From Herbiconiux sp. L3-i23 (GTDB lineage: Bacteria; Actinomycetota; Actinomycetes; Actinomycetales; Microbacteriaceae): a DNA stretch of 39,505 nt. Of the stretch, positions 4,194 to 18,063 are shown piece after piece (the first letter of the stretch is position 1; every line of letters starts with the position of its first letter). The DNA lies in the NCBI RefSeq assembly GCF_023734115.1, contig NZ_AP025738.1, positions 1-39,505 on the forward strand, in the 5' to 3' direction. Made by a program: the position numbers and the translations under genes. The notes beneath the pieces are model-generated. The model ran no database searches. It saw only the letters and a list, made by a program, of their open reading frames with translations, and was not told the origin of the DNA.

Positions 4194-4796
4194 TCAGAGC
4201 CCGAATGCTCCACCGCTGATCAGGATGAACAGACCCAGGCCGATCAGAACGATTGGGAACAGGATGTGCTCCCAGCGTTCGAGGATCTCTGCAATCGGGC
4301 GTCGTGTCGCGATGAACTTAGCCACGAAGACCAGGACCGCAACGAGGGCGAGGAATACAACACAGTACGCGACCACGGCAGCAGGCCCCACGCTCAGGAA
4401 GACTGGAACGTAAACACCAATGTTGTCCCCGCCGTTAGCGAAGGTCACGCCGGCCACGGCCCATACGGCGACCTTTTTCCCTTCGATCTTGCCGTCGTCG
4501 TCGTCATCGTCGTCTCGGTTGCGCCACGCCTGCCACGCCGCCCACAGACCCAAACCCAAGGGGATGAGACCGAAGTAGGGAATGAATTCAGGGGGCAGGA
4601 AGACCCCTGCGCCAAGAGCGACGAGTACCGCTGCGCCGAGGATGCCCGCGAAGCCCAGGTATTGTCCGATCAGGATACGAGTTGTGGTCCCGCGCTGGCC
4701 GGCACCACGGGCGAAGAACAACGAAAGCACGATGATGTCATCGATGTTCGTGACGAGGAACAGCCCGATTGCTTGCAGGATGGAGAGAAAAATCAT
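4194..4796 (-). CDS. cadD: CadD-family cadmium resistance transporter
   Basis: Seen: 200 residues from ATG 4796, with five or six hydrophobic helices. The N-terminal helix has the family motif TNIDDIIVLSLFF, a later helix has ANGGDNIGVYVPVF, and there is a cytoplasmic acidic loop of seven aspartates in mid-protein. These paired Asp motifs are typical of the cadmium resistance transporter family (LysE-like superfamily). It exports Cd(II) or sequesters it at the membrane. Its ATG overlaps the stop of cmtR (ATGA), so sensor and transporter are coupled. The poly-Asp loop could be a metal-binding or regulatory segment (inference). Confidence 0.9.
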   Translation of the reverse strand: MIFLSILQAIGLFLVTNIDDIIVLSLFFARGAGQRGTTTRILIGQYLGFAGILGAAVLVALGAGVFLPPEFIPYFGLIPLGLGLWAAWQAWRNRDDDDDDDGKIEGKKVAVWAVAGVTFANGGDNIGVYVPVFLSVGPAAVVAYCVVFLALVAVLVFVAKFIATRRPIAEILERWEHILFPIVLIGLGLFILISGGAFGL

Positions 4797-5152
4797 GCTC
4801 TCGCCTGCGTCGTGCAGCAGTCCGTGACCGTGCAGGTGGGGTCGAGGCACTCTGCACCGTGATCCACGGCCAGGGTTGTTTCTAACAGAGCGGTCAGTGC
4901 AGCCGTCAGCCTAGGGTCGGCGACCTCGTACCGAGTACGGCGTCCCTCGGGTTCGGCCACAACAATGCCGCAGTCACGGAGGCAAGTCAGATGGTTGGAG
5001 ACATTCGATGGGCTGAGGCCCAGCTGGCGGGCTAGTGCCGCCGGGTAGATCGGGCCATCGAGCAAAGTCATGAGGATACGGGAACGTGTCGAATCGGCCA
5101 TCGCTCGGCCGAGGCGGTTCATCACGTCCAGACGTGTAGTAATAGTCAGCAC
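4793..5152 (-). CDS. cmtR: CmtR-type Cd(II)/Pb(II)-sensing ArsR-family repressor
   Basis: Seen: 119 residues from GTG 5152. With this start the cysteines fall at 57 and 61 (in HLTCLRDCGIVV) and at 102, the positions used for Cd(II)/Pb(II) by Mycobacterium tuberculosis CmtR, and the N-terminus aligns without gaps to CmtR as I recall it. An in-frame ATG at 5167 exists but lies inside the operator palindrome and has no ribosome-binding site. A TATATT lies 6 bases before the GTG, so the mRNA is probably leaderless. The protein represses itself and the coupled cadD, and releases DNA on Cd or Pb binding. Confidence 0.93.
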   Translation of the reverse strand: MLTITTRLDVMNRLGRAMADSTRSRILMTLLDGPIYPAALARQLGLSPSNVSNHLTCLRDCGIVVAEPEGRRTRYEVADPRLTAALTALLETTLAVDHGAECLDPTCTVTDCCTTQARA

Positions 5153-6994: not shown

Positions 6995-7019
6995 GACTTA
7001 CCTTCTCTGGGATCACCGA

Positions 7020-7053
7020 CATGGCCGGGGCGGCTCTGACGGCCCCGGCCATG
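7020..7053 (-). terminator. Hairpin between ssb and the 6994 gene
   Basis: Perfect 12-base arms CATGGCCGGGGC (7020-7031) and GCCCCGGCCATG (7042-7053) with a 10-base loop, directly after the ssb stop on the minus strand. Confidence 0.7.
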
Positions 7054-7064
7054 TCGCGGGTTGG

Positions 7065-7427
7065 TTACTGCAGGTCGTCGCGGGCGTTGCGGCTGATGGT
7101 GACCGTCGCTCGAGCGAGGTCCGCGCCGATGCTGTCGGCGTCGATGACTCGGCCGTACTGCTTGTTGGCGTCGTCTCCCCAGCTCGACGTGTGCTCGCGT
7201 CCGGTGACGATCACGGCGTCTCCCTTGTGCAGGGATGCGGCCGCGTTCTCGCCCAGCTCGAACCGGGCTTCGATGAAGTGGGTTGTCGGGGTGTCGTGGG
7301 CCTGCCACTTGCCCTGTCGGTACTCCCCCGTGTTCTCGATGACGCGCAGCTTGGTGATCTGGATGCTGCCGGCTGGCACGACCTCGGGGTCGGCGGCCAG
7401 GTTTCCGGTGATGGTGCGTGTGGACAT
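7065..7427 (-). CDS. ssb: Single-stranded DNA-binding protein
   Basis: Seen: 120 residues with the OB-fold pattern of bacterial SSB: TRTITGNLAADPEV at the N-terminus, FIEARFELGENAAASLHKGDAVIVTGREHT in the middle, and a C-terminal strand region KQYGRVIDADSIGADL. It lacks the long acidic C-terminal tail of chromosomal SSB. It would coat plasmid single strands during replication or transfer. nrdH lies 11 bases upstream in the same unit, and leader element A precedes both, so SSB and NrdH are co-expressed. Confidence 0.9.
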   Translation of the reverse strand: MSTRTITGNLAADPEVVPAGSIQITKLRVIENTGEYRQGKWQAHDTPTTHFIEARFELGENAAASLHKGDAVIVTGREHTSSWGDDANKQYGRVIDADSIGADLARATVTISRNARDDLQ

Positions 7428-7438
7428 GGTGTCTCTCC

Positions 7439-7684
7439 TTATCGGTTACTTGCGATGCGGTCGATGTGGTCGGGGCGGAAGCCGCTCCAGTGGTCCTCGT
7501 CGGTGATGACGACGACGGGTGCTTCGGTGTATCCCAGGTCCTCGACGACGTAGGCACGCGCCGCCTCGTTCTCTCGGATGTTGACCTCTGCGAACTCGAT
7601 GCCCTTGGTCGTCAGCACTTTCTTGGTGAGTGTGCAGCGGGCGCATGACGGGCCGGTGGTGTACACCGTGATCTGCTCAGCCAT
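7439..7684 (-). CDS. nrdH: NrdH-like glutaredoxin
   Basis: Seen: 81 residues with the redox motif C-A-R-C at about residues 14-17, the cis-proline region EAPVVVI, and the NrdH-type C-terminus WSGFRPDHIDRI. Known: NrdH is a thioredoxin-reductase-linked electron donor for class Ib ribonucleotide reductase. The ATG at 7684 is preceded by a GGGAGAGGGG ribosome-binding region. The gene starts a unit with ssb and is directly downstream of leader element A. A second paralogue is at 17324, also behind a leader element. Supplying dNTPs together with SSB fits support of DNA synthesis after plasmid entry (inference). Confidence 0.87.
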   Translation of the reverse strand: MAEQITVYTTGPSCARCTLTKKVLTTKGIEFAEVNIRENEAARAYVVEDLGYTEAPVVVITDEDHWSGFRPDHIDRIASNR

Positions 7685-7715
7685 TGCTTTTGCCCCTCTC
7701 CCTACCAACCGTTTT

Positions 7716-7873
7716 TCTTTGCCTTCCGGCAATCGAGGGATTAACGGCGAGCGGAGCGGAGGGAGCAACGGACCGTGGAATACCGGACTGAGCGCAGCGG
7801 GGGAGGATATGCCGCGAAAGCCGTTGGCCCGGAGTGGAGCCGTCGTATCCTCGACAGCCGGAAAGGTCAAAGA
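7716..7873 (-). repeat. Leader element A: long hairpin with conserved core, upstream of nrdH-ssb
   Basis: Outer arms TCTTTGCCTTCCGGC (7716-7730) and GCCGGAAAGGTCAAAGA (7857-7873) pair imperfectly, followed inside by TCGA/TCGA. An inner stem CAACGG (7766-7771) / CCGTTG (7821-7826) encloses a core of about 50 bases that is almost identical to elements B and C. Read in the sense of nrdH the core begins GGCTTTCGCGGCATATCC. The right end (sense) also forms a local hairpin TTGCC-GGAA-GGCAA. Nature unknown: RNA leader or folded single-strand promoter. Confidence 0.8.
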
Positions 7874-7877
7874 ATGC

Positions 7878-8027
7878 GTGAGAGTCGCTGTGCCGCGTAG
7901 CGGCTCCCCTAGCGGGCCGGCCTCCGTGCCGGCGCGCCTGGCTCTGCGTGTGGGCATGCATGGCGGTCTGCGCTCAACGCACTTTCAGAGTGATATCACT
8001 GCGATAGCACGTCATGTCAGGCCTGGT
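7878..8027. other. Non-coding stretch between element A and the par operon
   Basis: I see no gene here. The part at 7989-8000 is a 12-base palindrome AGTGATATCACT belonging to the TGATATCA cluster. The rest is GC-rich without clear hairpins. Confidence 0.5.
7989..8000. promoter_or_regulatory. TGATATCA palindrome 1, downstream of the par genes
   Basis: AGTGATATCACT is a perfect 12-base palindrome, preceded by TTTCAG as at 9136-9141. It lies just past the stop of the ParA partner gene. With four similar sites it forms a candidate partition or operator site set. Confidence 0.55.
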
Positions 8028-8345
8028 TTACGCGCGGTGCTCGGCTCGGAGGACTTCGAGGCCACGTTGCAGGGCGCGCAGCGCGGTCTTGTGCTGGCTG
8101 CGATCCTCTAGCCCTGCGACCTCGGCCAGTTCGGCCGGGAGGGTGGCGTCGGGCCAGCGGATCAGCAGCGTCTTGGCCACGTCGGCCGGCCACTCCCCCG
8201 GCGCCGCGGTGCGCGCCGGTGCCGTCTCGCGGGGCGGCGTGGGGACGGCCGCGACCGGCGCCGGCGCCTCCGCGGGTGTGTCGGCGGCGGCGCCGAACGC
8301 CTCGATAGCTGCCGGGTCTGCCTGGGGTCGCTTCTTGATTGCCAT
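8028..8345 (-). CDS. Small ParA-partner protein (putative centromere-binding protein)
   Basis: Seen: 105 residues. The N-terminal half is disordered and rich in Ala/Pro (basic start AIKKRPQADP); the C-terminal half (ADVAKTLLIRWPDATLPAELAEVAGLEDRSQHKTALRALQRGLEVL) is compact and helical. The start ATG overlaps the parA stop (TAATG). Known: small ParA proteins work with a downstream small DNA-binding partner that has a flexible N-terminal arm stimulating the ATPase (ParG, ParB of type Ib). That role is inferred from order, size and architecture; no sequence motif proves it. TGATATCA sites flank the operon on both sides. Confidence 0.72.
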   Translation of the reverse strand: MAIKKRPQADPAAIEAFGAAADTPAEAPAPVAAVPTPPRETAPARTAAPGEWPADVAKTLLIRWPDATLPAELAEVAGLEDRSQHKTALRALQRGLEVLRAEHRA

Positions 8346-8977
8346 TACGCCACCAACTCCGCTGCGAGTTCCTGAATCTCTGCCTTGGCCTTCGGGTTGC
8401 TCCACTCGACGACGCCGAGCCCTTCACCTACTACGTCGCGGTATGCCTTGCGCTCGTAGATGACCGTCTCCAGTGGCCGGATACGGGGGTAGTCGGCCAG
8501 GTACTCCGCCGCGTCGGTGCGCTCGGTGATGTTCGGGTTGGAGGGCGCCTGTGTGATCAGGCCGCGCACGTCCAGCTCGGGGTTGAAGTCGAGGGCCTGG
8601 TCGATGACTTCGGTCATGTGGCCGAGCGTGTCGAGGTCGAGCTGGCTGGGACGGACGACGACGACGAGCTTGTCGGCGGCCGTCATTCCGGTGCGCATCT
8701 CCTTGCTGTCCTTGCCGGCGACGTCGACGATGACGACGTCATAGCGGGTGGCGAGGTCTTGCAGGGTCTGGTGGATGCTGCCGACCTTCTCGACGCACGC
8801 GATCGCGGGCTCGTGGCCTTGCTCTTCGCGGTCGGCGTGCCACCTGGACGCCGAGCGCTGTGGGTCGGCGTCGACGAGGCAGACGTCATCACCGCGACGG
8901 GCGTACTCCACGGCGAGGTTGACGGCGATGGTCGTCTTGCCGGGACCGCCCTTCTGGCTTCCGACGAGAATGATCAT
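8345..8977 (-). CDS. parA: ParA-family partition ATPase
   Basis: Seen: 210 residues with a deviant Walker A KGGPGKTT at residues 9-16, Walker A-prime VDADPQRSAS, and Walker B VVIVDVAGKD, where the usual DxP is a DVAG. It is the short type Ib ParA without an N-terminal HTH, so regulation rests on the partner protein. It forms dynamic ATP-dependent patterns on the nucleoid that segregate plasmid copies. The stop overlaps the partner start. The 270 bases upstream hold three TGATATCA sites (9068-9151), which fit a combined operator and centromere. Confidence 0.92.
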   Translation of the reverse strand: MIILVGSQKGGPGKTTIAVNLAVEYARRGDDVCLVDADPQRSASRWHADREEQGHEPAIACVEKVGSIHQTLQDLATRYDVVIVDVAGKDSKEMRTGMTAADKLVVVVRPSQLDLDTLGHMTEVIDQALDFNPELDVRGLITQAPSNPNITERTDAAEYLADYPRIRPLETVIYERKAYRDVVGEGLGVVEWSNPKAKAEIQELAAELVA

Positions 8978-9067
8978 GCTTGCACTCTACTTTCGATGTG
9001 GTAGCGGTTCGGTATCAACACGGTCTCAAACTGATAGCACATGCAAATTAGTAGCATCCTGAAACTG

Positions 9068-9151
9068 TTCTGATATCAGAATGGCATGCTATCGACGTGA
9101 TTGCAAGATGCAACCGTAGTGATATCACCTAGCGATTTCAGAGTGATATCA
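9068..9151. promoter_or_regulatory. TGATATCA palindromes 2-4 upstream of parA (putative parS/operator)
   Basis: Three copies within 84 bases: TTCTGATATCAGAA at 9068-9081 (14-base perfect palindrome), GTGATATCAC at 9119-9128, and GTGATATCAG at 9143-9152. Related GATAGCAC motifs lie nearby (9033-9040). An 8-base AT-rich palindrome is very unlikely to recur like this in such GC-rich DNA. Position before parA suggests a partition site and/or autoregulatory operator. Confidence 0.65.
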
Positions 9152-9161
9152 GTGGGGGAGC

Positions 9162-9181
9162 GCGAGGGGATCACCCCTCGC
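9162..9181 (-). terminator. Hairpin GCGAGGGG / CCCCTCGC
   Basis: Perfect 8-base stem with an ATCA loop between the 9248 gene and parA. The same hairpin, one pair longer, is at 10701-10722 beside another TGATATCA site. Probably a terminator in a duplicated intergenic block. Confidence 0.55.
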
Positions 9182-9212
9182 CGGCCGACCGGAGGGAGGC
9201 CGCGGGGTTGCG

Positions 9213-9238
9213 GGAGGGGCGGCCGATGCCGCCCCTCC
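9213..9238 (-). terminator. Terminator hairpin after the 9248 gene
   Basis: Eleven-base perfect stem GGAGGGGCGGC / GCCGCCCCTCC with a CGAT loop, 9 bases downstream of the 9248 stop on the minus strand. Confidence 0.75.
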
Positions 9239-9247
9239 GGGGGGCTG

Positions 9248-9448
9248 TCAGTCGGTCGTGCGGGTCAGCGTGTCGACGAACGTGACGTACTCGGGTCCGT
9301 CGATGGTGGCGGTGTGGGCCAGGTCGTAGCCTGCGCGGGCGTAGTCCGCGAGTTCCTGCGCCCGGTATCCGATCTGACGACTCTTGGCCACGGTGTCGGC
9401 GTCGCCCTTGCTGACGCGGTTCTCGATGACCTGGATGCTCTGGCTCAT
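9248..9448 (-). CDS. Small plasmid protein, paralogue of 17573-17779
   Basis: Seen: 66 residues. The C-terminal half (LADYARAGYDLAHTATIDGPEYVTFVDTLTRTTD) aligns with the 68-residue protein at 17573, which has LHDYGRHGYRLANTVTVPGAEFVTVIDTLTRESD. The fold looks like a short alpha/beta protein, with a helical N-terminus. I do not recognise the family. It follows the ArdC-like gene by 18 bases and is in the unit led by element D, while its paralogue is in the unit led by element C, so the family tracks with these leader elements. Confidence 0.75.
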   Translation of the reverse strand: MSQSIQVIENRVSKGDADTVAKSRQIGYRAQELADYARAGYDLAHTATIDGPEYVTFVDTLTRTTD

Positions 9449-9466
9449 GGGTGTGTCCTCTCGTTC

Positions 9467-10354
9467 TCAGGCCGCGACGGGCGCGGGGGAGCCGGTGGTG
9501 ATCGCGTCGGCCAGGGCGTGCGCAGTGCGCAGCACGTTCCCGGCGGTGGCTTTGACGGTGTCGGCGTCGCATTTGCTCCATCCGGCGACGTAGCCGACGC
9601 TGTAGGCGCTGGTGTCCAGGCCAAGAATCCCGGCGACGATGTACGCGACGCTCTCGGCCTCGGTTTCTTTGATCCCGCGGTGCTCGACGTACTCGGCGTG
9701 ATCTTCCTCGGCGTGCAGGATGACGTGTGCCGCCTCGTGCAGTGCGGTCTTTGCGGCCTGGGCGGGGGAGAGGTCGGCGTCGATGACAACGCGGCGGCTG
9801 TCGTCGGTGGTGGTGTAGCCGTTAGCGGCTCCGGGGATGCTCTCGCGCTCGACGGTCCAGCCCTTACCGGTGAGGTAGTCGACCACGGCGTCGAGGATGC
9901 CCGCGGGGTCGTCACCGGTGAGTTGGTGCGCGATGTCGCTGGGGTCGCCTGCTTCGGGGTCGATGAGGTCGGTCTGGCTCATGTCGAACACGGACACGGG
10001 GAAGAACCGCACGCGGCGCTGTTCTTCTTCTTCGCCGGTCTGCTCGTTCTCGACCGTTTCACGGATGTCGCGGCCGCCGAAGATGCGGATTCCGCGCTCA
10101 CCTTTGCGCACCTGGCGGTTGAGGCTCTGCCACGTCCGGTATCCGGCGACGTGCGTCGCCTCGGGGCTCTGCGCGAAGATCAGCAGCAGGTTTCCCAGGC
10201 TGTAGCGGTGGAACGCCTGAGCGAACGCGAGGAACCGCGTCCACGTCTCGGAGTCGCGTAGCGCTTCGATCTGCTCGGCGATCGTCTCGTGCAACGCCTC
10301 GGCCTCGGCTCGGCGTTCCTCGGTGCTCTTGCGGGTGGTGACTTTGCGGGTCAT
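9467..10354 (-). CDS. ArdC-like antirestriction protein with zincin domain
   Basis: Seen: 295 residues. Residues about 15-100 match the N-terminal ssDNA-binding domain of ArdC (FLAFAQAFHRYSLGNLLLI, AGYRTWQSLNRQVRKGERGI). Residues about 150-270 carry a metallopeptidase-like domain with the HEAAH zinc motif at 206-210 and a likely third ligand in the ETEAESVAY segment. Known: ArdC proteins are carried by conjugative plasmids, bind single-stranded DNA and protect incoming DNA from restriction. ATG 10354 has an AAGGAGAGAG site upstream. Leader element D lies directly in front, 28 bases from the start. Confidence 0.88.
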   Translation of the reverse strand: MTRKVTTRKSTEERRAEAEALHETIAEQIEALRDSETWTRFLAFAQAFHRYSLGNLLLIFAQSPEATHVAGYRTWQSLNRQVRKGERGIRIFGGRDIRETVENEQTGEEEEQRRVRFFPVSVFDMSQTDLIDPEAGDPSDIAHQLTGDDPAGILDAVVDYLTGKGWTVERESIPGAANGYTTTDDSRRVVIDADLSPAQAAKTALHEAAHVILHAEEDHAEYVEHRGIKETEAESVAYIVAGILGLDTSAYSVGYVAGWSKCDADTVKATAGNVLRTAHALADAITTGSPAPVAA

Positions 10355-10382
10355 GGCTCTCTCCTTCCATCAACCCCTCACG

Positions 10383-10584
10383 TTTTCTTGCCGTGAAGGC
10401 GACTTGTCGCCGCTAGGGAGTGCCGGGCGGAGTGCAACCCGTCAGGGCGGCGGGGGAGAGAAGTTCGGCGCGATGGGAGGGAGCGCAGCGACCGCGTGCC
10501 GAACTTGTCGGGGGAGCCGGCGGCGAAGCCGCTTGCACGAAGGTCGGCCGACCGTATGCTGCCGAAGGCTTCACGGCAAGAAAA
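10383..10584 (-). repeat. Leader element D: long hairpin upstream of the ArdC-like gene
   Basis: Outer arms TTTTCTTGCCGTGAAG (10383-10398) and CTTCACGGCAAGAAAA (10569-10584) pair perfectly over 16 bases, 170 bases apart. Inside, AAGTTCGGC (10461-10469) pairs with GCCGAACTT (10498-10506) around a core GGGAGGGAGCGCAGCGA that shares the GAGCGCAGCGA and GGGAGG words of elements A-C. A further local hairpin GGCGAC-TT-GTCGCC is at 10398-10411. It is the most divergent of the four elements but has the same architecture and gene position. Confidence 0.7.
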
Positions 10585-10755
10585 TGGGGCCCGTCAGGGC
10601 CGTGCTGCCCGGCCTGTGGCCGGTCCGTTTCCGTGTGCTGGTGGGGTGCTGGCATCGTGCCTGCATTGTGATATCAGTGTGCATTCATCGGCGGGGGAGC
10701 GCGAGGGGGACGGCCCCCTCGCCGGCGATCGCGGAGCGGGGGCCGTCGACGTCCG
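10585..10755. other. Non-coding stretch with hairpins and TGATATCA site 5
   Basis: No gene seen. It holds hairpins GGCCC-gtca-GGGCC (about 10588-10601) and CGGCC-tgt-GGCCG (10610-10622), the TGATATCA site at 10669-10676, and the stem GCGAGGGGG / CCCCCTCGC at 10701-10722, which probably terminates the 10756-10971 gene on the minus strand. Confidence 0.6.
10669..10722 (-). repeat. TGATATCA site 5 plus terminator-like hairpin (second copy of the 9144-9181 block)
   Basis: TGATATCAGTG followed by GGGGGAGCGCGAGGGG and its pairing partner CCCCTCGC also occur in the same order at 9144-9181. The block lies at the 3' side of a minus-strand gene in both cases. Confidence 0.6.
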
Positions 10756-10971
10756 CTATGGGTGGAATTCGGTGACGGTGTAGCCGGGGATCTCGCCGTC
10801 CTGTATCGCGTGAATCTCGTCGATCATGTCGTTCATCGCGTCGTGCTGGTCGAACGGGGGCAGACCGTCGTCCCAGCTCGCGCCGAGCTGCGCGTCGGCC
10901 CAGAGGGACGCGAGCCGGACGTCGGTGTCGGCGGTGAAGGTGTCGCCTTCGGGTGTGGTCATGGTGAGCAT
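10756..10971 (-). CDS. Small acidic hypothetical protein
   Basis: Seen: 71 residues from ATG 10971 with GGAG six bases upstream. It is acidic (TADTDVRLASLWADAQLGASWDDGLPPFDQHDAMNDMIDEIHAIQDGE) without cysteines or known motifs. It follows the ParB-like gene after the hairpin at 10993-11017. Family not recognised; a DNA-mimic or small regulatory role would be speculation. Confidence 0.65.
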   Translation of the reverse strand: MLTMTTPEGDTFTADTDVRLASLWADAQLGASWDDGLPPFDQHDAMNDMIDEIHAIQDGEIPGYTVTEFHP

Positions 10972-10992
10972 GTGTGTCTCCGGGGGAGTCGG

Positions 10993-11017
10993 GGAGGGGG
11001 CCGGGTCGGCCCCCTCC
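10993..11017 (-). terminator. Hairpin downstream of the ParB-like gene
   Basis: Ten-base perfect stem GGAGGGGGCC / GGCCCCCTCC with a GGGTC loop, just after the stop at 11025 on the minus strand. Confidence 0.75.
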
Positions 11018-11024
11018 GGTGCGG

Positions 11025-12428
11025 TTACTCCTCGTCGCCGTCGTAGTCCTCGGCGTAGTCGGCGGTCGGGTCGTCAGTCGCGTCGGTGGCGCTGGTGACG
11101 ATCTGCTCGACCTCGCTCAGCCCGTAGCCCCATGCGGCGAGTTGGCTGAAGTAGGCCCGGTCGGTGGGGGAGGGGTGGCGCCAGGTCTGCTTGCTGGTGA
11201 TGTTCTCCACGGCTCCGAGTACGACAGCCAGCGCCACGTGCTGCGCTTTGCCGGGGGTGTGCTCGACGAGGGCGGCGAGCTTGTCGGCCTCCCAGTAGCC
11301 GCCTCGCTCGATGCTCAGGAGTTCGTGCGCGAGGGTGTTGCCGTCGCGGGTGGCCAGGCTCACGGCCTGCCGGTGCAGGGTGAGGCCGGTGGCGATCACC
11401 GCGGCGGCGTCTTTGGGGAGCGTCTTGCGGGACAGGAACGTGGTGAGCCATTCGCGGCGCACGACCTCGGCGGATGCCCATGCCTTGTTGTTGGCGATCA
11501 GTGTTCGGCGCTCGGCCTTCTGCTCGTCGGTCATCGGCCCGCTGTTGCTGCCGGAGCCGGTGGCCTTGCGGAATCCTGCGGCTTTCGGGTCGCGGAGGTA
11601 GTAGGTCACGTCGGCTTTGCCGGTGATGTAGACCCGGACGAACGCGGCCCGGCCCTCGGCGTTCTCGATGTGCTCGACGGTGGCTTGGTCGCCTTCGGCG
11701 GTGACGAGTTCGCTGAGCCGCGTGTAGTCGGTTTCGTAGTAGCCGCGGTCGCGGTCGAGGACGTTGAAGCCGCGGGCTGTCAGGTCCGCCTCGGTGTCGG
11801 CCTTGACCTCCGCGCGTGCCCGGTCGTCCCTGGCGCGCTGGGCGGTGTGGGCGAACTGTGCGGGGTCGTGGGTGGCCACGTCGATCAGCTGCGCTCGGGC
11901 CTCGGGGTCGTCGTCGAATTCGATGAGGACGGCGGCCTGGTCGAGGGTCAGCGTGTGCTCGTGGATCGCGGAGGCGGCTGTGGCGTTCTCGGCCACGGCG
12001 AGGGCGGTTTTGACCTCTTTGGCCTTGGTGCCGGTGCGCTTGGCGATCGCGGTGACGCTCATCCCCTCGAACGCGAGTTGCTGGAACGCGGCGGCTCGGT
12101 CGCCGTCGGTGAGGGCTTCGCGCTGGTCGTTCTCGACCATCTGCTGGATGATGCGTTCCGCGGTGGCCTCGTCCGCGTCGACGATGTAGACGGGGATCGT
12201 GCTCACGCCTGCTTCCCGGGCGGCGAGGGTGCGGCGCTGTCCGGCTCGCACGAGGATGTTCCCTTGTTCGTCTCGGCGCGCCAGCACGGGGGTGAGCACC
12301 CCGTTTTCTCGGACGCTCTGCACGAACGCGGCCGTCAGCGGTGCGCTGGGCCTGACGTTGGCCTCGATGACGAGGGTCTGCGGGTCGATGTGCTCGACGG
12401 TTCCGGTGTGGATGGTGGTGTCAGCCAT
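11025..12428 (-). CDS. ParB/RepB/Spo0J-type nuclease-fold protein
   Basis: Seen: 467 residues. An N-terminal ParB domain (about 15-100) has the family motifs NVRPSAPLTAAFVQSVRENGVLTPV and RAGQRRTLAAREAG; a HTH follows (about 125-165: MSVTAIAKRTGTKAKEVKTAL). The long C-terminal half (about 230-467) is variable and ends in an acidic tail. Known: large ParB-like proteins of actinobacterial plasmids are often encoded away from parA and may act in transfer or gene control rather than partition. ATG 12428 is supported by GGGAGAGAG upstream. Leader element B directly precedes it. It lies downstream of rep. Confidence 0.88.
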   Translation of the reverse strand: MADTTIHTGTVEHIDPQTLVIEANVRPSAPLTAAFVQSVRENGVLTPVLARRDEQGNILVRAGQRRTLAAREAGVSTIPVYIVDADEATAERIIQQMVENDQREALTDGDRAAAFQQLAFEGMSVTAIAKRTGTKAKEVKTALAVAENATAASAIHEHTLTLDQAAVLIEFDDDPEARAQLIDVATHDPAQFAHTAQRARDDRARAEVKADTEADLTARGFNVLDRDRGYYETDYTRLSELVTAEGDQATVEHIENAEGRAAFVRVYITGKADVTYYLRDPKAAGFRKATGSGSNSGPMTDEQKAERRTLIANNKAWASAEVVRREWLTTFLSRKTLPKDAAAVIATGLTLHRQAVSLATRDGNTLAHELLSIERGGYWEADKLAALVEHTPGKAQHVALAVVLGAVENITSKQTWRHPSPTDRAYFSQLAAWGYGLSEVEQIVTSATDATDDPTADYAEDYDGDEE

Positions 12429-12461
12429 GATCTGTTCTCTCTCCCGATCAACTGTTTTGTT

Positions 12462-12612
12462 CGCCTGTCTGGCAAGAGGATCGTTTGAGAGCGCAGCGGC
12501 GAGAGTGCCGGGTCGTGGAATACCGAACTGAGCGCAGCGAGGGAGGATATGCCGCGAAAGCCCGGCACGGCAGCCGTGGAGCGAACTACGATTCGGCGGC
12601 CAGGCAGAGGGA
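12462..12612 (-). repeat. Leader element B: long hairpin with conserved core, upstream of the ParB-like gene
   Basis: Outer arms near GCCTGTCTGGC (12462-12472) and GGCCAGGCAGAGG (12598-12610) pair imperfectly. The inner stem GTGCCGGG (12505-12512) / CCCGGCAC (12561-12568) is perfect and differs in sequence from the inner stems of A and C, which indicates compensatory change. The enclosed core is nearly identical to A and C. A local hairpin GCC-agaca-GGC lies at its 3' end in the sense of the ParB-like gene. Confidence 0.8.
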
Positions 12613-12688
12613 CAGCAGACAAGCTCTGGCCGCGTAGCGGCTCCATTCATCGGAGCAGCTCGTGCGCCGATCGCGCTCGAGCGCGGTT

Positions 12689-14698
12689 CTACGCCGCGGC
12701 GAGAGCTGTGGCGGGGGAGAGGATGCCGGCGTCGACGAGCCGGAGCGCTTCTTTGTGGTCGGCACGGCCGTCAGGGCCTCGCGGGTACCGCGAGTAGTCG
12801 GGACGATCGTTTTGGGCGAACAGGGCGACGCCGGAGGGGGCTCGACGGCCTCGCCGTTTCTTGTTCGGTTTCCGCATCCAGGTCAGCTCGGCGTTCCACC
12901 ATTCCCACCGGCCGCGCTCGGCACCGTAGCGGGCTCGACGGGTCTCCAGGTAGCCGGCGACGTCGAGGGCGTCGGCGGCCGCGTCGAGCGCCGTGGTGTC
13001 GCCTCGACTCCATCCGGCACCGCCACGGCGGGCCAGGCGGTGGAACCGGAGCCGGTGCAGCGCGACCCGGATGCGTGCGGCGTCCAGCCCGGTCCGGTGC
13101 ACAAGGTCCTCGATTGTCGTGGTGGCCGCCTCCGGGAGGTGCTTGAACACGAGCCCCGCGGTGCGGCCCAGGCTGCGGGGGGCGGCGAACGTATCGTGCG
13201 TGAGCGGGTGGAGTTCAGCGGTTAGTCGCGTGGTCCAGTAGCTGGCGTTGAGCGGGGGGTGCGGGGGGCGGGGGCGTGCAGGCACTTGTGTCCGGTTATA
13301 GTCCTCCGGGTCTGTGGAGAACCGTTTGGAGAGTCGGTAGCGCTGCCCGTGGGGGGCGTCGACGTCTCCGACGCGGACGATCCATGCGGACTCCAGGTCG
13401 GCGTCGACGACGGGGCGGGTGAGCGCCTGGAGCGCGGTGTGGACGGTGGTTCGGCCGTAGCCTGTGTCGGCCGAGAGGCGCCGCACGTCGGCTTCTACGA
13501 CCAGCTGTGCGGACTGGGCGATGTAGAGGCAGAGGGCGTCGAGGACGGCACGGGTGCTGTGCGTCCCTGTGCTGCGGCGTGCAGCCGATGACGCCCGGTC
13601 CGCGCCCCACAGGCCCGGCATGGCGTCTGCGCGCTCCTGAGCGCGTTCTACGGCCGCGAGGGCGGTGTTCGCGCGGGCGAGATAGTTGGTGTCGTCGCCG
13701 GTGCCGTTGAGCGGGTGAGCGGCGACGTAGCGGACGGCGTTGTTCCAGGCGGCGTCCAGGGTTCGGATGCGGCCGCGCTCGGTGCGGGGGATGCGATCGC
13801 GGCCGTTCCTGCCGCGCAGCGTGCGGACGTGCTCGAACGCGGGCGCGTCGACGACGGCCAGGACGTCCGCGTATCGCCAGCGAGAGTGCGCACAGCCTGC
13901 GAGGACGGCGGCGAGGGTGTAAGACGTGTCCGCGCCCGGGGCGCTGTGCAGCATCGCGTCGACGCGGGGCGTGAGGGGCCGTCTGGGGCCAGCGATGTAG
14001 GGGTGGCCGTCGTCGTCGACGGCCATGCCGCGCAGGAGGCCCATCGTGGGCGACGGCAGCTCAGCGCCGGCGTCGACGAGGAAGGCGGTGAGGTCGGTGA
14101 TCGCGTCGAGGGGGACGGTGCAGCTGGTGAGGGCTGTGAGCGGCCCTTGGGCCACGGATACACCGCCGAGGCGGTGGGGAGCTCCGGGCGGCCGCACACA
14201 GCCGGTGGCGGGGTTGGTCAGGGGAGTGGGGTCGAGGGAGGGGAGCAGCTGGGTTGCGAGGAGCGCGAGATCTCGAACGAGGGCGGCGTCGGCGGACTCG
14301 GCCATGCCGATCCAGACGTGGCGGCCGCCGGTGGGGCCGGATGCGCAGATCAGATGTGCGACGTTCAGCTCGTCGAGCCAGTGGGAGAGTCGGCCGGCGT
14401 CGTAGGGGGCGTTCCCGCGGGAACTGTCAAAGTCGAAGCAGAGGTAGTCGTAGCGCTGGCGGTCGCCAGAGAGGTACATCGCCCAGGGGGTTCGCGGCGG
14501 CAGCTCGTTCACCGAGCACTGGTGGTCGTACTCGTTCAGGACCTCACCGGATGCGAGCTGTGCGGCGGCGCGCACGTGCTCGCGGGGGCTGAGAGCGCGC
14601 GTGAGCACCCACGCGGATGCCAGGTCAGGCTCCGACACGCGGGGGTCACCAAAGGAAATGGTGGCGCTAGTGCTAGCGCTTGGTATAGTCAGTCCCAA
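12689..14698 (-). CDS. Plasmid replication initiator with archaeo-eukaryotic primase domain
   Basis: Seen: 669 residues. Primase-superfamily motifs are YLCFDFDSS (acidic pair at about 89 and 91), SGPTGGRHVWI (120-130) and RPPGAPHR (169-176). The C-terminal half holds winged-helix-like segments (VRRLSADTGYGRTTVHTALQAL; DLVHRTGLDAARIRVALHRL). Known: such primase-HTH proteins initiate replication of actinobacterial plasmids. The start is uncertain: TTG 14698 directly abuts an AAGGAG; CTG 14692, in frame, would have ideal 6-base spacing; GTG 14638 is a further option. A 16-base palindrome (14664-14679) and a putative antisense RNA overlap the start region, consistent with copy-number control. Confidence 0.85.
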   Translation of the reverse strand: MGLTIPSASTSATISFGDPRVSEPDLASAWVLTRALSPREHVRAAAQLASGEVLNEYDHQCSVNELPPRTPWAMYLSGDRQRYDYLCFDFDSSRGNAPYDAGRLSHWLDELNVAHLICASGPTGGRHVWIGMAESADAALVRDLALLATQLLPSLDPTPLTNPATGCVRPPGAPHRLGGVSVAQGPLTALTSCTVPLDAITDLTAFLVDAGAELPSPTMGLLRGMAVDDDGHPYIAGPRRPLTPRVDAMLHSAPGADTSYTLAAVLAGCAHSRWRYADVLAVVDAPAFEHVRTLRGRNGRDRIPRTERGRIRTLDAAWNNAVRYVAAHPLNGTGDDTNYLARANTALAAVERAQERADAMPGLWGADRASSAARRSTGTHSTRAVLDALCLYIAQSAQLVVEADVRRLSADTGYGRTTVHTALQALTRPVVDADLESAWIVRVGDVDAPHGQRYRLSKRFSTDPEDYNRTQVPARPRPPHPPLNASYWTTRLTAELHPLTHDTFAAPRSLGRTAGLVFKHLPEAATTTIEDLVHRTGLDAARIRVALHRLRFHRLARRGGAGWSRGDTTALDAAADALDVAGYLETRRARYGAERGRWEWWNAELTWMRKPNKKRRGRRAPSGVALFAQNDRPDYSRYPRGPDGRADHKEALRLVDAGILSPATALAAA
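14664..14679. promoter_or_regulatory. Palindrome at the rep start
   Basis: GCGCTAG-TG-CTAGCGC is a perfect dyad overlapping the first codons of rep. The neighbouring upstream gene encodes a small RHH-like protein, so this could be its operator in a CopG-like copy-control circuit (inference). Confidence 0.5.
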
Positions 14699-14835
14699 CT
14701 CCTTCTGGGAACGACGAAGCCTCCGGCTTCACCGGCTCGGATGGTGGCGATTAGCTCGGAGTCGAAAGTTTGGCGACTGGCCGACTCGGAGCTACGAAAC
14801 TTGAGGGGCCCGCCGGTAACGGCGGGCTCTTTCGT
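14696..14835 (+). ncRNA. Putative antisense (countertranscribed) RNA over the rep leader
   Basis: On the plus strand an extended -10 box TGgTATAGT lies at 14681-14689. About 140 bases later a terminator stem GCCCGCCG-gtaa-CGGCGGGC is followed by CTCTTTCGTTT (14808-14837). Between them are hairpins TCCCA/TGGGA (14693-14710) whose loop contains CTCCTT, complementary to the rep AAGGAG, GAAGCC-tcc-GGCTTC (14717-14731 region), and an 11-of-12 stem around GTCG-aaagtttgg-CGAC (about 14752-14792). No coding frame is evident. This layout fits a copy-control antisense RNA. Confidence 0.55.
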
Positions 14836-14837
14836 TT
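14808..14837 (+). terminator. Intrinsic terminator with U-run, plus strand
   Basis: Stem GCCCGCCG / CGGCGGGC with a GTAA loop and a downstream TCTTTCGTTT. The U-run is on the plus-strand side, so it terminates a plus-strand transcript although all annotated genes here are on the minus strand. Confidence 0.8.
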
Positions 14838-15072
14838 AAGCGGCGGGGATGGGCAGCTCCTCCTTCTGAGGGCGCGGCGACGCGATGATCGGGAGTCGCC
14901 CGTTGTCCTCGACCAGTTGATCGATGAGGGCTTCCAGGTAGTACGCGATTGAGACACCGCTGCGCTCCGCGGCCTCCTGGACTTCGGCGCGTGCTTCGGG
15001 GGAAACGCGGCCTTGCAGAAGGACGGTCGGGGCCCCGTCTGCGCGGCGGGCCCGTCTCTTCATTGCACTCAT
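14836..15072 (-). CDS. Small RHH-like DNA-binding protein (putative copy-control regulator)
   Basis: Seen: 78 residues from ATG 15072 (ATG 15063 also possible), with a basic N-terminus (KRRARRADG), a short strand TVLLQGRVS, and two helices (PEARAEVQEAAERSGVSIAYYLEALIDQLVED), the pattern of ribbon-helix-helix proteins of the CopG/Arc type. It lies immediately upstream of rep in the same direction. Known: CopG-like proteins repress rep promoters. Assignment is by pattern and position, not by a clear family match. Confidence 0.7.
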   Translation of the reverse strand: MSAMKRRARRADGAPTVLLQGRVSPEARAEVQEAAERSGVSIAYYLEALIDQLVEDNGRLPIIASPRPQKEELPIPAA

Positions 15073-15127
15073 GCGTCCACCATTCCGGACAGTATGCATT
15101 CGCGGTCGTTGGCTCGCGGCGTGTCGG

Positions 15128-15670
15128 TCATTCTGCCGCGTGAGGGGGTTGATTGCTGGTTTCGTCGAGTCGTTCGCGGAGCTGCCACTTGTGAACGATC
15201 CAGCGGCCTCCGACGAAGGAGCCGGGGATGTGACCCTGTTCGAGCCAGATGTAGATGGTGCCCTTGTACTTGACGCGGAACAGCTGCATGAGGTCGCGGT
15301 AGCTGAGTTCGTCGGCGTAGCCGGCGAGCACGTCGACGGGTTCGCTGGGGCGGGGGCGGTTGCTCGTTGCGGCGAGCCAGGCGCGTATCTCGGCCTTGAA
15401 GATGATCCAGGAGTCACCGATCCGATGTCCGGGGATCGTGCCGTCGCGTAGGCGCGCTCGGACGGCTGGCGCACCGGTGCGGATGATCTTGGCGACGTCG
15501 GCGGTGGTCAGCGTGTCGGGGTACTGCGACCAGTAGTCCTCTTCGCTCACCGGCTCGGGGTTTTCATGTGGGCTCCGTTCGGGTTCGGAGTGTTTCGTAG
15601 CTGAGTCACCTAGTGAAGCGGCGCTGCCAGGTGAGGTGACGCTCTCAGTATCCCGCGGGTTGTCGGTCAT
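15128..15670 (-). CDS. Protein with two tandem excisionase-type HTH domains
   Basis: Seen: 180 residues. A disordered Ser/Pro-rich N-terminus (1-45) is followed by two MerR/Xis-like helix-turn-helix units: about 52-102 (LTTADVAKIIRTGAPAVRARL, wing GHRIGDSWIIFKAEIRAWL) and about 120-170 (LSYRDLMQLFRVKYKGTIYIWL, wing GSFVGGRWIVHKWQLRERL). Single HTH_17 domains are common in excisionases and plasmid regulators; the duplication suggests binding to a composite site. The ATG overlaps the stop of the FHA gene (ATGA). Confidence 0.8.
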   Translation of the reverse strand: MTDNPRDTESVTSPGSAASLGDSATKHSEPERSPHENPEPVSEEDYWSQYPDTLTTADVAKIIRTGAPAVRARLRDGTIPGHRIGDSWIIFKAEIRAWLAATSNRPRPSEPVDVLAGYADELSYRDLMQLFRVKYKGTIYIWLEQGHIPGSFVGGRWIVHKWQLRERLDETSNQPPHAAE

Positions 15671-16509
15671 CTGGGGGACACCCCCTGGTCATCGTTGACG
15701 AGGGAGACGGTGAGGCGGACGTCACCGATCACGGCGATGTCCTGGTCGTGCAGCTGAAGCGGCTGCCACGGCGTGAGCTCCATCGTCGCGGTGCCGGGTC
15801 GTTCGATGGTGGTTCCGTTGGAGGAGGCGCGGTCGGTGGCCCAGAGGGCGCCGTCGTGCCATTCGATGCGTAGGTGGGTGCGGGAGAGCATCCGGGACCC
15901 GTCGTCGACGCTCACGAGCAGGTCGACGTCCTCGCCGACGTCGGCAGCGGGTCGTCGGCCGATGAGGGCGGCGCCGCTGACGCGGGCGACGTCGCCCGTG
16001 CTGAACCGGAGGGTCGCGGTCGGTGCTGCCGGCCGCCGTGGTGTCGACCGCTGAACGAGGCGTGTGTGCTCGAGGTCGGGGTCGACAGGTGTCGGCGGTG
16101 GCGCGATCGGCTCGGCCGGTCGCGCTGGCGGCTGGTAGACGGCTGGAGCGGGCGTGGTGATCGGCGGAGGGCCGATCACCCCTCGATCGGGTGCGGCCGC
16201 GGTCGCGGGGACTGTGACGGCCTGCCTGCGCGGCCGGCGGCCCTTCTCGGCCGGCTCGGCAAGGTCCGTGACGGTCCCGTTGGGGTGCACCGCGACGAGC
16301 CACTTTCCGTCCGGGTCAGTGATCTGCATGCGCAGCGGCCGGTGCAGCTCCGCGGCGACCGCCGTGGCGTACGCGGTGACGGCGCGGCGGGTGACGTCGC
16401 TGGTTGCGGCGTCGAAGTGCTCGTGTCGGCCGGCGACGTTGACGTGCGCGCTGCCGTCCGGCGCGACGTCGACGTACACGACGGGGTAGGCGGGGACCGG
16501 TGCGCTCAT
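15667..16509 (-). CDS. FHA-domain protein
   Basis: Seen: 280 residues. N-terminal 1-90 form a small domain of unknown type; a proline-rich linker (about 110-160) follows; the C-terminal 175-275 form a forkhead-associated domain with ALIGRRP, SRTHLRIEW and SSNGTTIE, the conserved Gly-Arg, Ser-x-x-His and Asn landmarks. FHA domains bind phosphothreonine peptides. Similar FHA proteins occur near transfer genes of actinobacterial plasmids. The ATG overlaps the M23 stop (TGATG) and the stop overlaps the next ATG, so the three genes are one coupled unit. Confidence 0.85.
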   Translation of the reverse strand: MSAPVPAYPVVYVDVAPDGSAHVNVAGRHEHFDAATSDVTRRAVTAYATAVAAELHRPLRMQITDPDGKWLVAVHPNGTVTDLAEPAEKGRRPRRQAVTVPATAAAPDRGVIGPPPITTPAPAVYQPPARPAEPIAPPPTPVDPDLEHTRLVQRSTPRRPAAPTATLRFSTGDVARVSGAALIGRRPAADVGEDVDLLVSVDDGSRMLSRTHLRIEWHDGALWATDRASSNGTTIERPGTATMELTPWQPLQLHDQDIAVIGDVRLTVSLVNDDQGVSPR

Positions 16510-17003
16510 CAGGGCCTCCGGCACGATTCGGGCTGGCAGAGCACCATGCCGAAGACTTGGTAGAACTCCTCGGGGTTCACGAAGCCATAGGACGTCGACG
16601 GGCCGCCGAGGTCCTCGCCGGCCTTGAGGCTGGCGATCGCGGGGTCGATGGTGCCCTCCTTGTTGATGCGCAGGTCGAGGTGGCATCCGCCGGATGGTCC
16701 CTCGTTCCCGGTGAGCGCGATCGGTTCGCCGGCGGTCACAGTGTCGCCTACGGCGACGGAGATATCGGAGAGCTTCATGTGCAAGTAGGACGCGCTCCAG
16801 CCGTCTGGCGATTTGATCGTGAGCTGGATGCCTCCGATGTAGGTCACGGTGCCGTCGCTGATGGAGTAGATCTGGTCTTTGCAGTTGTTGGGCCAGTGCT
16901 GGAGGTCGACCGCGGGGTGCCAGGTCGAGGCGCCTGGGATGTCGATGACGCGGGGCCCGTAGTCGTCGGTCATGTTGAAGCCGGGCCCGAGCGGGTAGAC
17001 CAT
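16509..17003 (-). pseudogene. M23 (LytM-type) endopeptidase, probably truncated at the N-terminus
   Basis: Seen: from ATG 17003, 164 residues with a full set of LytM zinc ligands: HPAVD (H29, D33), SYLHM (H75) and GGCHLDL (H108). Known: such enzymes cut peptidoglycan cross-bridges and usually have an N-terminal membrane or lytic-transglycosylase part. The in-frame coding-like sequence continues upstream of ATG 17003 (GGGCAGNGS before MVYPLG) but reaches a stop near 17097-17099 without any ATG, GTG or TTG, and no ribosome-binding site precedes 17003. This suggests that a longer transfer-type gene lost its 5' part where the hairpin at 17099-17136 and element C now begin. A short functional protein is still possible. 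Confidence 0.65.
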
Positions 17004-17098
17004 GCTGCCGTTGCCGGCGCATCCGCCGCCGCTGGCGGCGTCGCCGGCGATGGCGCCTCTGCTTCTTCTGAGGAGTAGCCTTCGGCTCTGATTTTCTC

Positions 17099-17136
17099 AA
17101 CGGCCCCCGTCACGCTTCGCGCTGATGGGGGCCGTT
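17099..17136. terminator. Hairpin at the junction of the M23 remnant and element C
   Basis: Ten-base perfect arms AACGGCCCCC (17099-17108) and GGGGGCCGTT (17127-17136). It separates divergent units and marks the point where the M23 frame is cut off. Confidence 0.6.
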
Positions 17137-17151
17137 GCGTGGGCAACTTCG

Positions 17152-17300
17152 TTGCCTTTCGGCCTGTGGATGATACGCGCCGGTTTCGCTGCGGCAAGGG
17201 CTTTCGCGGCATATCCTCCCTCGCTGCGCTCACTCCGGTATTCCACGGTCCCCTGCCTCCGCGACCCCAACGCTGTAATTCGGCTTTTGCCGAAAGGCAA
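17152..17300 (+). repeat. Leader element C: long hairpin with conserved core, upstream of the second nrdH (inverted copy)
   Basis: Outer arms TTGCCTTTCGGC (17152-17163) and GCCGAAAGGCAA (17289-17300) pair perfectly. Inner stem GGCAAGGG (17193-17200) pairs 7 of 8 with CCCCTGCC (17250-17257). The core of about 50 bases matches A and B almost exactly but on the opposite strand of the plasmid. Both outer arms can also fold locally (GGCAAC-ttc-GTTGCC at 17142-17156 and TTCGGC-tttt-GCCGAA at 17279-17294), so two mutually exclusive folds exist. Confidence 0.8.
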
Positions 17301-17323
17301 TGAGGTTTGGAGAGGAAAGTGCC

Positions 17324-17569
17324 ATGAACGATGAACCGCTGACCGTGTACTCCAAGGCCGGCTGCGTGCAGTGCACGGCGACACTGCGGGCGCTCGATGC
17401 CGCCGGCATCGCGTACCGGGTGATCGACCTGACCGGTGACCCGGTGGCGCTGGAGAACGTCAAAGAGTCGGGCTTCCTGCAGGCGCCGGTGGTCGAGGGT
17501 GCCGGCAACCCGTGGTCGGGTTTCCGACCCGATCGGATCGACGAGCTGGTCAAGTCGAGGGTGGCGTGA
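17324..17569 (+). CDS. nrdH: NrdH-type glutaredoxin (second copy)
   Basis: Seen: 81 residues with the canonical NrdH motif C-V-Q-C at residues 14-17, the cis-proline segment QAPVV and the NrdH C-terminal signature WSGFRPDRIDEL. It is a paralogue of the protein at 7439 but keeps the more typical active site. ATG 17324 has GGAGAGG upstream. It opens a plus-strand unit of three small genes behind leader element C. The expected role is electron donation to ribonucleotide reductase; no nrdE/nrdF is on the plasmid, so it would work with the host enzyme. Confidence 0.9.
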   Translation: MNDEPLTVYSKAGCVQCTATLRALDAAGIAYRVIDLTGDPVALENVKESGFLQAPVVEGAGNPWSGFRPDRIDELVKSRVA

Positions 17570-17572
17570 GCG

Positions 17573-17779
17573 ATGAGCAGGACAGTGAGCTTCGCCACGA
17601 TCCAGACGACGTTCCCCAGCGGCGACGAGGACCACTACCGGTTGTCGCAGAAGGTCGGGGAACGGGACCAACAGCTGCACGACTACGGCCGGCACGGGTA
17701 CCGGCTCGCGAATACGGTGACGGTCCCCGGAGCCGAGTTCGTGACGGTGATCGACACCCTCACGAGGGAGAGCGACTGA
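17573..17779 (+). CDS. Small plasmid protein, paralogue of 9248-9448
   Basis: Seen: 68 residues; the C-terminal half shares the pattern DYxRxGYxLAxTxTxxGxExVTxxDTLTR with the protein at 9248. The start is 3 bases after the nrdH stop, and its stop overlaps the next ATG (TGATG). Family unknown. Co-occurrence of this family and nrdH behind elements of the same type in two places suggests an ancestral leader-nrdH-small-protein module that was duplicated and inverted. Confidence 0.75.
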   Translation: MSRTVSFATIQTTFPSGDEDHYRLSQKVGERDQQLHDYGRHGYRLANTVTVPGAEFVTVIDTLTRESD

Positions 17780-17982
17780 TGCTGTACGAGCACTCCCCCG
17801 CACCCGTTCTGCTCACCCCCGACGAGGCGGCAGTCATCCTCGGCCGCGACGTGGCAGAACTGCGGCGGTGGCGTAGCCAGAACGTGGGGCCCACGTTCCA
17901 CGACCTCGGCCGCGGACTCATCCGCTACGCCCGCGAATCGGTGATCGAGGAGGCCAGCTACGACGCCGAATCAAAGCGCTAG
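17779..17982 (+). CDS. Small excisionase-like HTH protein
   Basis: Seen: 67 residues with a winged-helix pattern of the HTH_17/Xis type: LLTPDEAAVILGRDVAELRRWRSQNVGP followed by a wing FHDLGRGLIRYARESVIEEA. Such proteins act as excisionases or local transcription regulators. It overlaps the preceding stop and ends the three-gene unit. The target site is unknown. Confidence 0.8.
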   Translation: MLYEHSPAPVLLTPDEAAVILGRDVAELRRWRSQNVGPTFHDLGRGLIRYARESVIEEASYDAESKR

Positions 17983-18063
17983 CAGAAACCGCTGCACGCG
18001 CAGATAGTCATCATGACGAGGCATCGCTCCCGAGCACCGCCTCTTCCCCTCCGGAGCTGATGG

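Follow-up and report, generated by a model that had tools for sequence, protein, structure and literature searches.

Candidate single-strand promoter hairpins with a shared core before leading-region genes of a Herbiconiux plasmid

The single-strand promoters that we know to have been tested at the bench come from enterobacterial plasmids, F and ColIb-P9. In F, Frpo1 and Frpo2 (ssiD) act as single-strand promoters in vivo, lie in the leading region before ssb-type genes, and form single-strand stem-loops with -35 and -10 boxes (PMC9849209, in the part of the paper available). Frpo-like candidates in leading regions have been collected by BLAST with five known sequences, a -35/-10 consensus and the fold (Samuel et al., 2024; PMC11541004, available in part), and an Frpo (ssi) upstream of ecoGIXM is mentioned in the available part of a paper on a plasmid methylase (PMC7736820). 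Here we analyze contig NZ_AP025738.1 (contig C2) of Herbiconiux sp. L3-i23, a small plasmid in a 3.18-Mb genome, which is taken at its whole length of 39,505 bp and called the window. It contains four hairpin elements, A, B, C and D, directly before nrdH-ssb, a parB-like gene, a second nrdH and an ardC-like gene, respectively. Comparison with relatives from other bacteria makes it likely that the elements are strand-specific DNA hairpins that act on the single-stranded plasmid, above all on entry into the recipient, in the manner of Frpo/ssi.

Element A (7716..7873) runs on the minus strand, the direction of the gene it precedes, and its folding strand is the plus strand. Its core (7774..7821, minus strand) fits the exact core pattern and scores 76.7 bits with covariance model R1, with A among the building sequences of that model. 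Promoter-like boxes (TTGGCC-16-TATCCT) are found at 7824..7851 on the plus strand, i.e., the folding strand. A gene for an NrdH-like glutaredoxin (7439..7684, minus; Pfam PF00462) follows A, and an ssb gene (7065..7427, minus; PF00436, E value 8.7e-9) follows nrdH. Element B (12462..12612, minus; folding strand plus) has its core at 12514..12561 (minus; exact pattern, 64.0 bits with R1, which includes B), boxes with a poor -35 (GGCACG-17-TACGAT) at 12564..12592 (plus), and a ParB_N gene behind it (11025..12428, minus; PF02195). Element C (17152..17300, plus; folding strand minus) has its core at 17200..17247 (plus; exact pattern, 79.1 bits with R1, which includes C), boxes at 17170..17197 (minus; TTGCCG-16-TATCAT), and the second NrdH-like glutaredoxin gene behind it (17324..17569, plus; PF00462). 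Element D (10383..10584, minus) has the same outer arms and boxes at 10533..10560 (plus; TTGCAC-16-TATGCT), and precedes an ArdC-like gene with an ArdC N-domain (9467..10354, minus; PF08401). The coordinates bear out the preliminary description, according to which all four elements lie just upstream of a gene and in its direction, and Pfam agrees with it that these genes belong to leading-region classes (SSB, ArdC, ParB_N, NrdH-like).

The sense core of A, B and C is written 5'-GCTTTCGCGGCATA..CGGTATTCCACG. The exact pattern, GCTTTCGCGGCATA-N-TATTCCACG in sense orientation, occurred at three sites in the 3.18-Mb genome, all on contig C2, and the pattern read backwards, used as a control, had no match there. 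When 3 mismatches were allowed in a 20-base core, the same three sites were recovered (backwards control, one), and A and B were 86% alike over 74 nt, in line with the near-identical core already noticed for A, B and C. D had been counted as a fourth member of the family. It does share outer arms and promoter-like boxes with core-bearing relatives, for example in locus L020, but its centre is another hairpin, the covariance model gave no report for it at E 0.1, and the nhmmer match was weak (E 0.014). D has relatives that are near full-length in L004, L126, L020 and L016 (two) and partial in L067. As judged from these matches, the family is to be split into the core-bearing elements A, B and C and the core-less sister D.

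The exact core pattern was present in at least 118 genome stretches and 28 IMG/VR contigs. According to record titles, which may be wrong for some metagenome-assembled genomes and drafts, the hosts come from four phyla and include Actinomycetota, alpha-, beta- and gammaproteobacteria, Bacillota and Bacteroidota. In the bacterial family of the window, 21 of 199 genomes had an exact match (backwards control, 0), and the covariance-model search that had been suggested for finding relatives reported 28 of the 199 at E 0.001. A phylum-wide sample of 396 genomes contained a single match, the window's own. With 21/199 in the family and 1/396 across the phylum, the core family is patchy, like mobile DNA. 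For counting, 177 copies with 80 bases on both sides were reduced to a non-redundant set of 118 by removing those with flanks at least 70% alike. As a side observation, the elements of L094 and L116, both titled Vibrio cholerae strain 35D, resemble by eye those of Arthrobacter L021, perhaps as a result of contamination or misassignment.

Model R1 also found copies in F and ColIb-P9 (61.8 bits each). Since a close relative of the copy in F is among its building sequences, next to A, B and C, the independent evidence for F and ColIb comes from nhmmer profiles: a profile of A, B and C alone matched F (E 2e-4), and a profile of actinobacterial copies matched both F (1e-5) and ColIb-P9 (7e-6). Each plasmid has one copy, at 53995-54072 of F (L012:5996-6073) and at 23708-23785 of ColIb (L015:3709-3786), in both cases before the leading-region DNA methylase.

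The core-bearing elements resemble Frpo1/Frpo2 (ssiD) of F in their leading-region position, ssb-type genes, predicted single-strand stem-loop and, for part of the copies, -35/-10-like boxes, and ssi1-ssi3 of ColIb-P9 in plasmid region and gene classes. They differ from them in sequence. The core family had no sequence match to the Frpo1/Frpo2 regions, from which the core copy of F is separate, and the core copy of ColIb is distinct from the three Frpo-like regions of that plasmid (L015 7881-8157, 14917-15186 and 17972-18082), which we read as ssi1-3. Identity with Frpo1/2 of F or with the three Frpo-like regions of ColIb was rejected, as no homology was found. The candidates of Samuel et al. 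(2024) are likewise candidate single-strand promoters in leading regions; their comparison with the core family was by description, from the available part of that paper (PMC11541004), and overlap is possible. With this reservation, the core family is probably a separate sequence family of the known Frpo/ssi-like kind. Literature searches with the letters of the core as terms gave no relevant paper among the matches listed (0 occurrences for both 14-letter terms), and searches for an actinobacterial leading-region promoter or for structured RNAs acting as single-stranded DNA gave nothing fitting.

In order to examine the fold, we built an alignment (A1) of 100 sequences, namely 98 of the 118 non-redundant copies (20 were left out by hand for shortness), to which A and B were added. 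In A1, 23 letters do not vary because the search pattern was exact, and they should not be taken to measure conservation; the constancy of the inner helix has the same origin. The stem outside the core contained 199 double-change cells, compared to 80.8 +- 7.0 in shuffles, none of which (0/500) reached 199. By this count, the covariation claimed for the family is well above shuffles, and the inner stems quoted for A, B and C are present and compensate each other's changes. The covariation score was 0.278, compared to 0.097 in shuffles and at most 0.160 when the partners were slid; the stem pairs better one column over in 24 of the 100 rows, which contributes to the +1 slid value. The number of pairs with a double change, 8 of 9 in the outer stem, was not above shuffles (7.9 for the whole structure).

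Folds of the single elements were just moderate, so that the case rests on the comparison of copies. The z scores for RNA folds of the sense strand were -1.63, -0.02, -3.24 and -2.24 for A, B, C and D, and those for DNA folds of the other strand were -2.39, -1.28, -1.37 and -3.14. For C with long arms, the sense strand as DNA was about equal (-33.4 vs -33.7 kcal/mol, z -1.89). No Rfam family scored above its gathering score in the window, and none was found at the core in 16 loci. A known Rfam family was rejected as an identity; the best weak match at A, P10, had 17.5 bits against the 37 needed and looks like chance.

A helix tolerates G.T pairs but hardly A.C pairs, and the kind of mismatch can therefore tell which strand folds. 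With both kinds scored equally, the outer helices of the strand complementary to the mRNA contained 92 G.T and 36 A.C pairs (p 8e-7 against one half), and its apical stem contained 28 and 9, respectively. The loop GCGNAGC, an unusually stable DNA mini-hairpin, was present on the folding strand in 50 of 137 distinct cores and its mirror form in none, with the reservation that related copies share loops. Calculated as DNA, the mRNA-complementary strand was the more stable one in 112 of 118 copies, which are not 118 independent trials, since all copies share the core; the outer-helix count of G.T and A.C pairs is free of that. The inner helix was present in the best DNA fold of 88 copies on the folding strand and of 40 on the other. 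These criteria point to the mRNA-complementary strand, the template of the genes behind the element, as the one that folds.

The preliminary description had left open a promoter or a structured RNA leader. An mRNA leader regulating the genes behind would suit the placement of A to D, all just upstream of a gene and in its direction, and sense-strand RNA folds do exist, that of C being the best of the four. It would, however, need the opposite strand to fold, whereas the mRNA-complementary strand is the one supported by G.T pairs, GCGNAGC loops and DNA folding energy, and it also carries the -10-like box, which is inside the element. We consider a leader very unlikely. The promoter half of the earlier alternative is the one favoured by strand asymmetry, box and gene classes.

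On the folding strand, a -10-like box (TANNNT) was found 23-28 positions beyond the core in 52 of 118 copies; the mirror side had it in 4 of the 118, and 500 shuffles gave 5.1 +- 2.2 (highest value, 13). At offsets 22-27 the count was 56/118 against 4/118, and for Actinomycetota 33/43 against 0/43. A, B, C and D each carry such a box on the folding strand, with a spacing of 16-17 nt. In the duplex, reading along these boxes leads away from the gene. In the hairpin it leads outward, and the template is then the other arm, followed by the gene.

The genes beside the element were compared for both sides. On the gene side, the longest open reading frame at up to 400 nt was taken (89 loci of 106 non-viral ones); the other side provided 82 loci. 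The Pfam tally is rough, since genes are longest open reading frames in unannotated loci, and in A2 the window's open reading frame was replaced by hand with the NrdH one. The gene side was characterized by ParB_N (9 loci), N6_N4_Mtase (7), SSB (6), ArdcN (4) and DUF932 (3), and by transposases in a few loci. On the other side ArdcN occurred once, and the other four families were absent among the 25 of 46 families listed.

In 12 of 16 stretches with several copies all copies were on one strand (expected, 5.9). In all six plasmids looked at (F, ColIb-P9, a Burkholderia glumae plasmid, a Pseudomonas aeruginosa IncP plasmid, pTZC1 and Gulosibacter pARLON1), the element is directed to that side of the mobilization genes where the origin of transfer (oriT) would lie, an arrangement known from leading regions. 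By gene order, the folding strand would be the transferred strand in these 6/6, with exceptions among other copies; oriT was inferred from the mobilization genes, and the reading of pTZC1 between element and mobilization genes has a gap of about 9 kb. With oriT placed in this manner, the element of the relatives is in the leading region, before leading-region genes. Of the two copies in the P. aeruginosa IncP plasmid, the first has an oppositely oriented gene behind it.

We propose that, while the plasmid is single-stranded, as the transferred strand entering the recipient would be, the strand that is the template of the genes behind the element forms a hairpin. A -35-like box, in many cases TTG.., would then lie in the stem, and the TANNNT box would follow outward at a distance of 15-17 nt. 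Host RNA polymerase, reading outward from the hairpin, would use the 5' arm as template, and transcription would run into the adjacent leading genes (nrdH-ssb, ardC, parB-like). The RNA would serve as mRNA, perhaps also as primer for the second strand. Second-strand synthesis would close the switch, the boxes of the duplex being directed away from the gene. In the window, the folding strand would be the transferred strand, and the core (CGTGGAATA / TATGCCGCGAAAGC) may bind a conserved host factor or hold the fold. The parts of this proposal taken directly from the sequences are the covariation of the stem, the choice of folding strand, the gene classes and, for many copies, the constant spacing of a -10-like box.

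Several observations do not fit easily with this proposal. More than half of all copies have no -10-like box, and at offsets 22-27 the box is rarer outside Actinomycetota: 10/22 in Bacillota, 9/36 in Pseudomonadota and other hosts, 2/5 in Bacteroidota and 2/12 in viral copies (mirror side 0, 2, 0 and 2/12, respectively). By eye, the copy of F is also without it. A -35-like TTGA/TTGC stretch is present in the stem of 72/118 copies, yet in just 12/43 from Actinomycetota. The families on the other side are led by MobC (5/82) and NikA-like proteins (3/82), and in four of these loci (L039, L063, L072 and L081) the core adjoins MobC-like genes and faces away from them, which misfits a simple transferred-strand rule. 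L006, L068, L077 and the window, the last with C against A, B and D, have copies on both strands, and genomes G423, G497 and G519 contain opposite-facing pairs; the caveat raised earlier about the strand of C stands. The window's genome gave no relaxase or MobC match in a search restricted to PF03432, PF08751 and PF05713 (other relaxase families were not tried), so that the leading-region status of the window is judged by gene classes alone. The core is also found in contigs with terminase/portal genes of tailed phages (L144, L151 and L152), and tailed phages have duplex genomes. Finally, nine of ten large neighbours, mostly from Bacillota, match transposase or integrase-core families, some of them below cut-off.

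The last point raises the question of whether the element is a mobile hairpin repeat or part of a transposon, spread by insertion and without function for its neighbours. The transposases beside copies are of ISL3, Mutator, IS110, IS240-like and rve types, and Caldicoprobacter has three near-identical copies, two of them with identical core, about 140 nt from a 458-aa open reading frame (L022, L088 and L105). Outer stems that vary yet keep pairing speak against such a repeat, and so does the finding that many copies have the same direction relative to the gene behind them and that these genes belong to few classes; we regard this explanation as unlikely. In L043, L060, L108 and L161, also from Bacillota, the core lies 24 nt from an open reading frame, which in L043 encodes a Mutator-family transposase.

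The viral copies bear on a different role. The element could foremost be a single-strand origin, at which primase, PriA or RNA polymerase would be brought to the folded strand and start the second one, with the position before genes being secondary. This role overlaps with the promoter proposed above, and the likelihoods of the two are not exclusive; we consider the origin a real possibility, though at somewhat less than an even chance. Of the 23 viral contigs tallied (from a total of 28, with several near-duplicates), 21 have most of their coding sequence on the folding strand; in single-stranded DNA phages the main coding strand is the packaged one. The element of these 21 is antisense to the main coding strand, a further point against a leader. 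Small phages are among the carriers: L136 and L157 are filamentous-phage-like, with pIV-type secretin or Zot genes, L138 has a rolling-circle Rep, and in one of two annotated microviruses, MG945503, the folding strand is on the coding strand. D, which keeps the promoter boxes without the core, also speaks for an origin, as the core may serve a separate purpose.

The second microvirus, PQ006669, has the opposite orientation, however (a third microvirus record carries no annotation), and several viral contigs are tailed phages; in plasmids, moreover, the element is placed before leading genes in gene direction and has the -10-like box. Known phages gave no match at E 0.01, and looser limits gave few, partly unrelated and partly Microviridae. 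At the M13 complementary-strand origin RNA polymerase acts on a folded single strand, but M13 had no convincing model match (best 7.7 bits, E 3.7), and neither had phiX174. The complementary-strand origin of G4 was matched weakly (17.2 bits, viral strand, L169:3925-3996, overlapping the annotated primer). Unlike G4, phages alpha3, phiK and St-1 had no match up to E 5, and their aligned stretch has another loop; a G4-type primase origin was rejected as an identity, the match being weak and not common to these phages. The flanks of L135 are identical to those of L144.

It is conceivable, at close to an even chance, that one sequence-conserved signal for entry, with an invariant core and serving as promoter and primer site in folded DNA, is common to small phages, integrated elements and conjugative plasmids from four or more bacterial phyla; in F and ColIb it would be the copy before the DNA methylase, which is not one of the Frpo/ssi regions. 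If so, a host factor present in all these bacteria would read the core, and which host protein does so would become a question to pursue. Defined by its sequence and spread across phyla, such a family would mark leading regions directly and perhaps also the transferred strand, and it would point to the genes made first in the recipient. The idea of early expression would then become testable in Gram-positive Actinomycetota.

The surroundings of C differ from those of the other elements. The nearest plasmid record for positions 7000-18000 of the window is NZ_CP089591 from Microbacterium sp. J1-1, with 93.0% identity over 89%, and this similarity ends at about 17055, just before C, which may therefore belong to another segment. 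It suggests that 17055-17300 is a junction of two plasmid segments. Elsewhere the window contains heavy-metal genes, namely two P-type ATPases with repeated stretches (32204-34360 and 34402-36678). A cadmium-transporter family protein (4194-4850) and an ArsR/arsenate-reductase-like protein (640-1314; below curated cut-offs) are also of this group.

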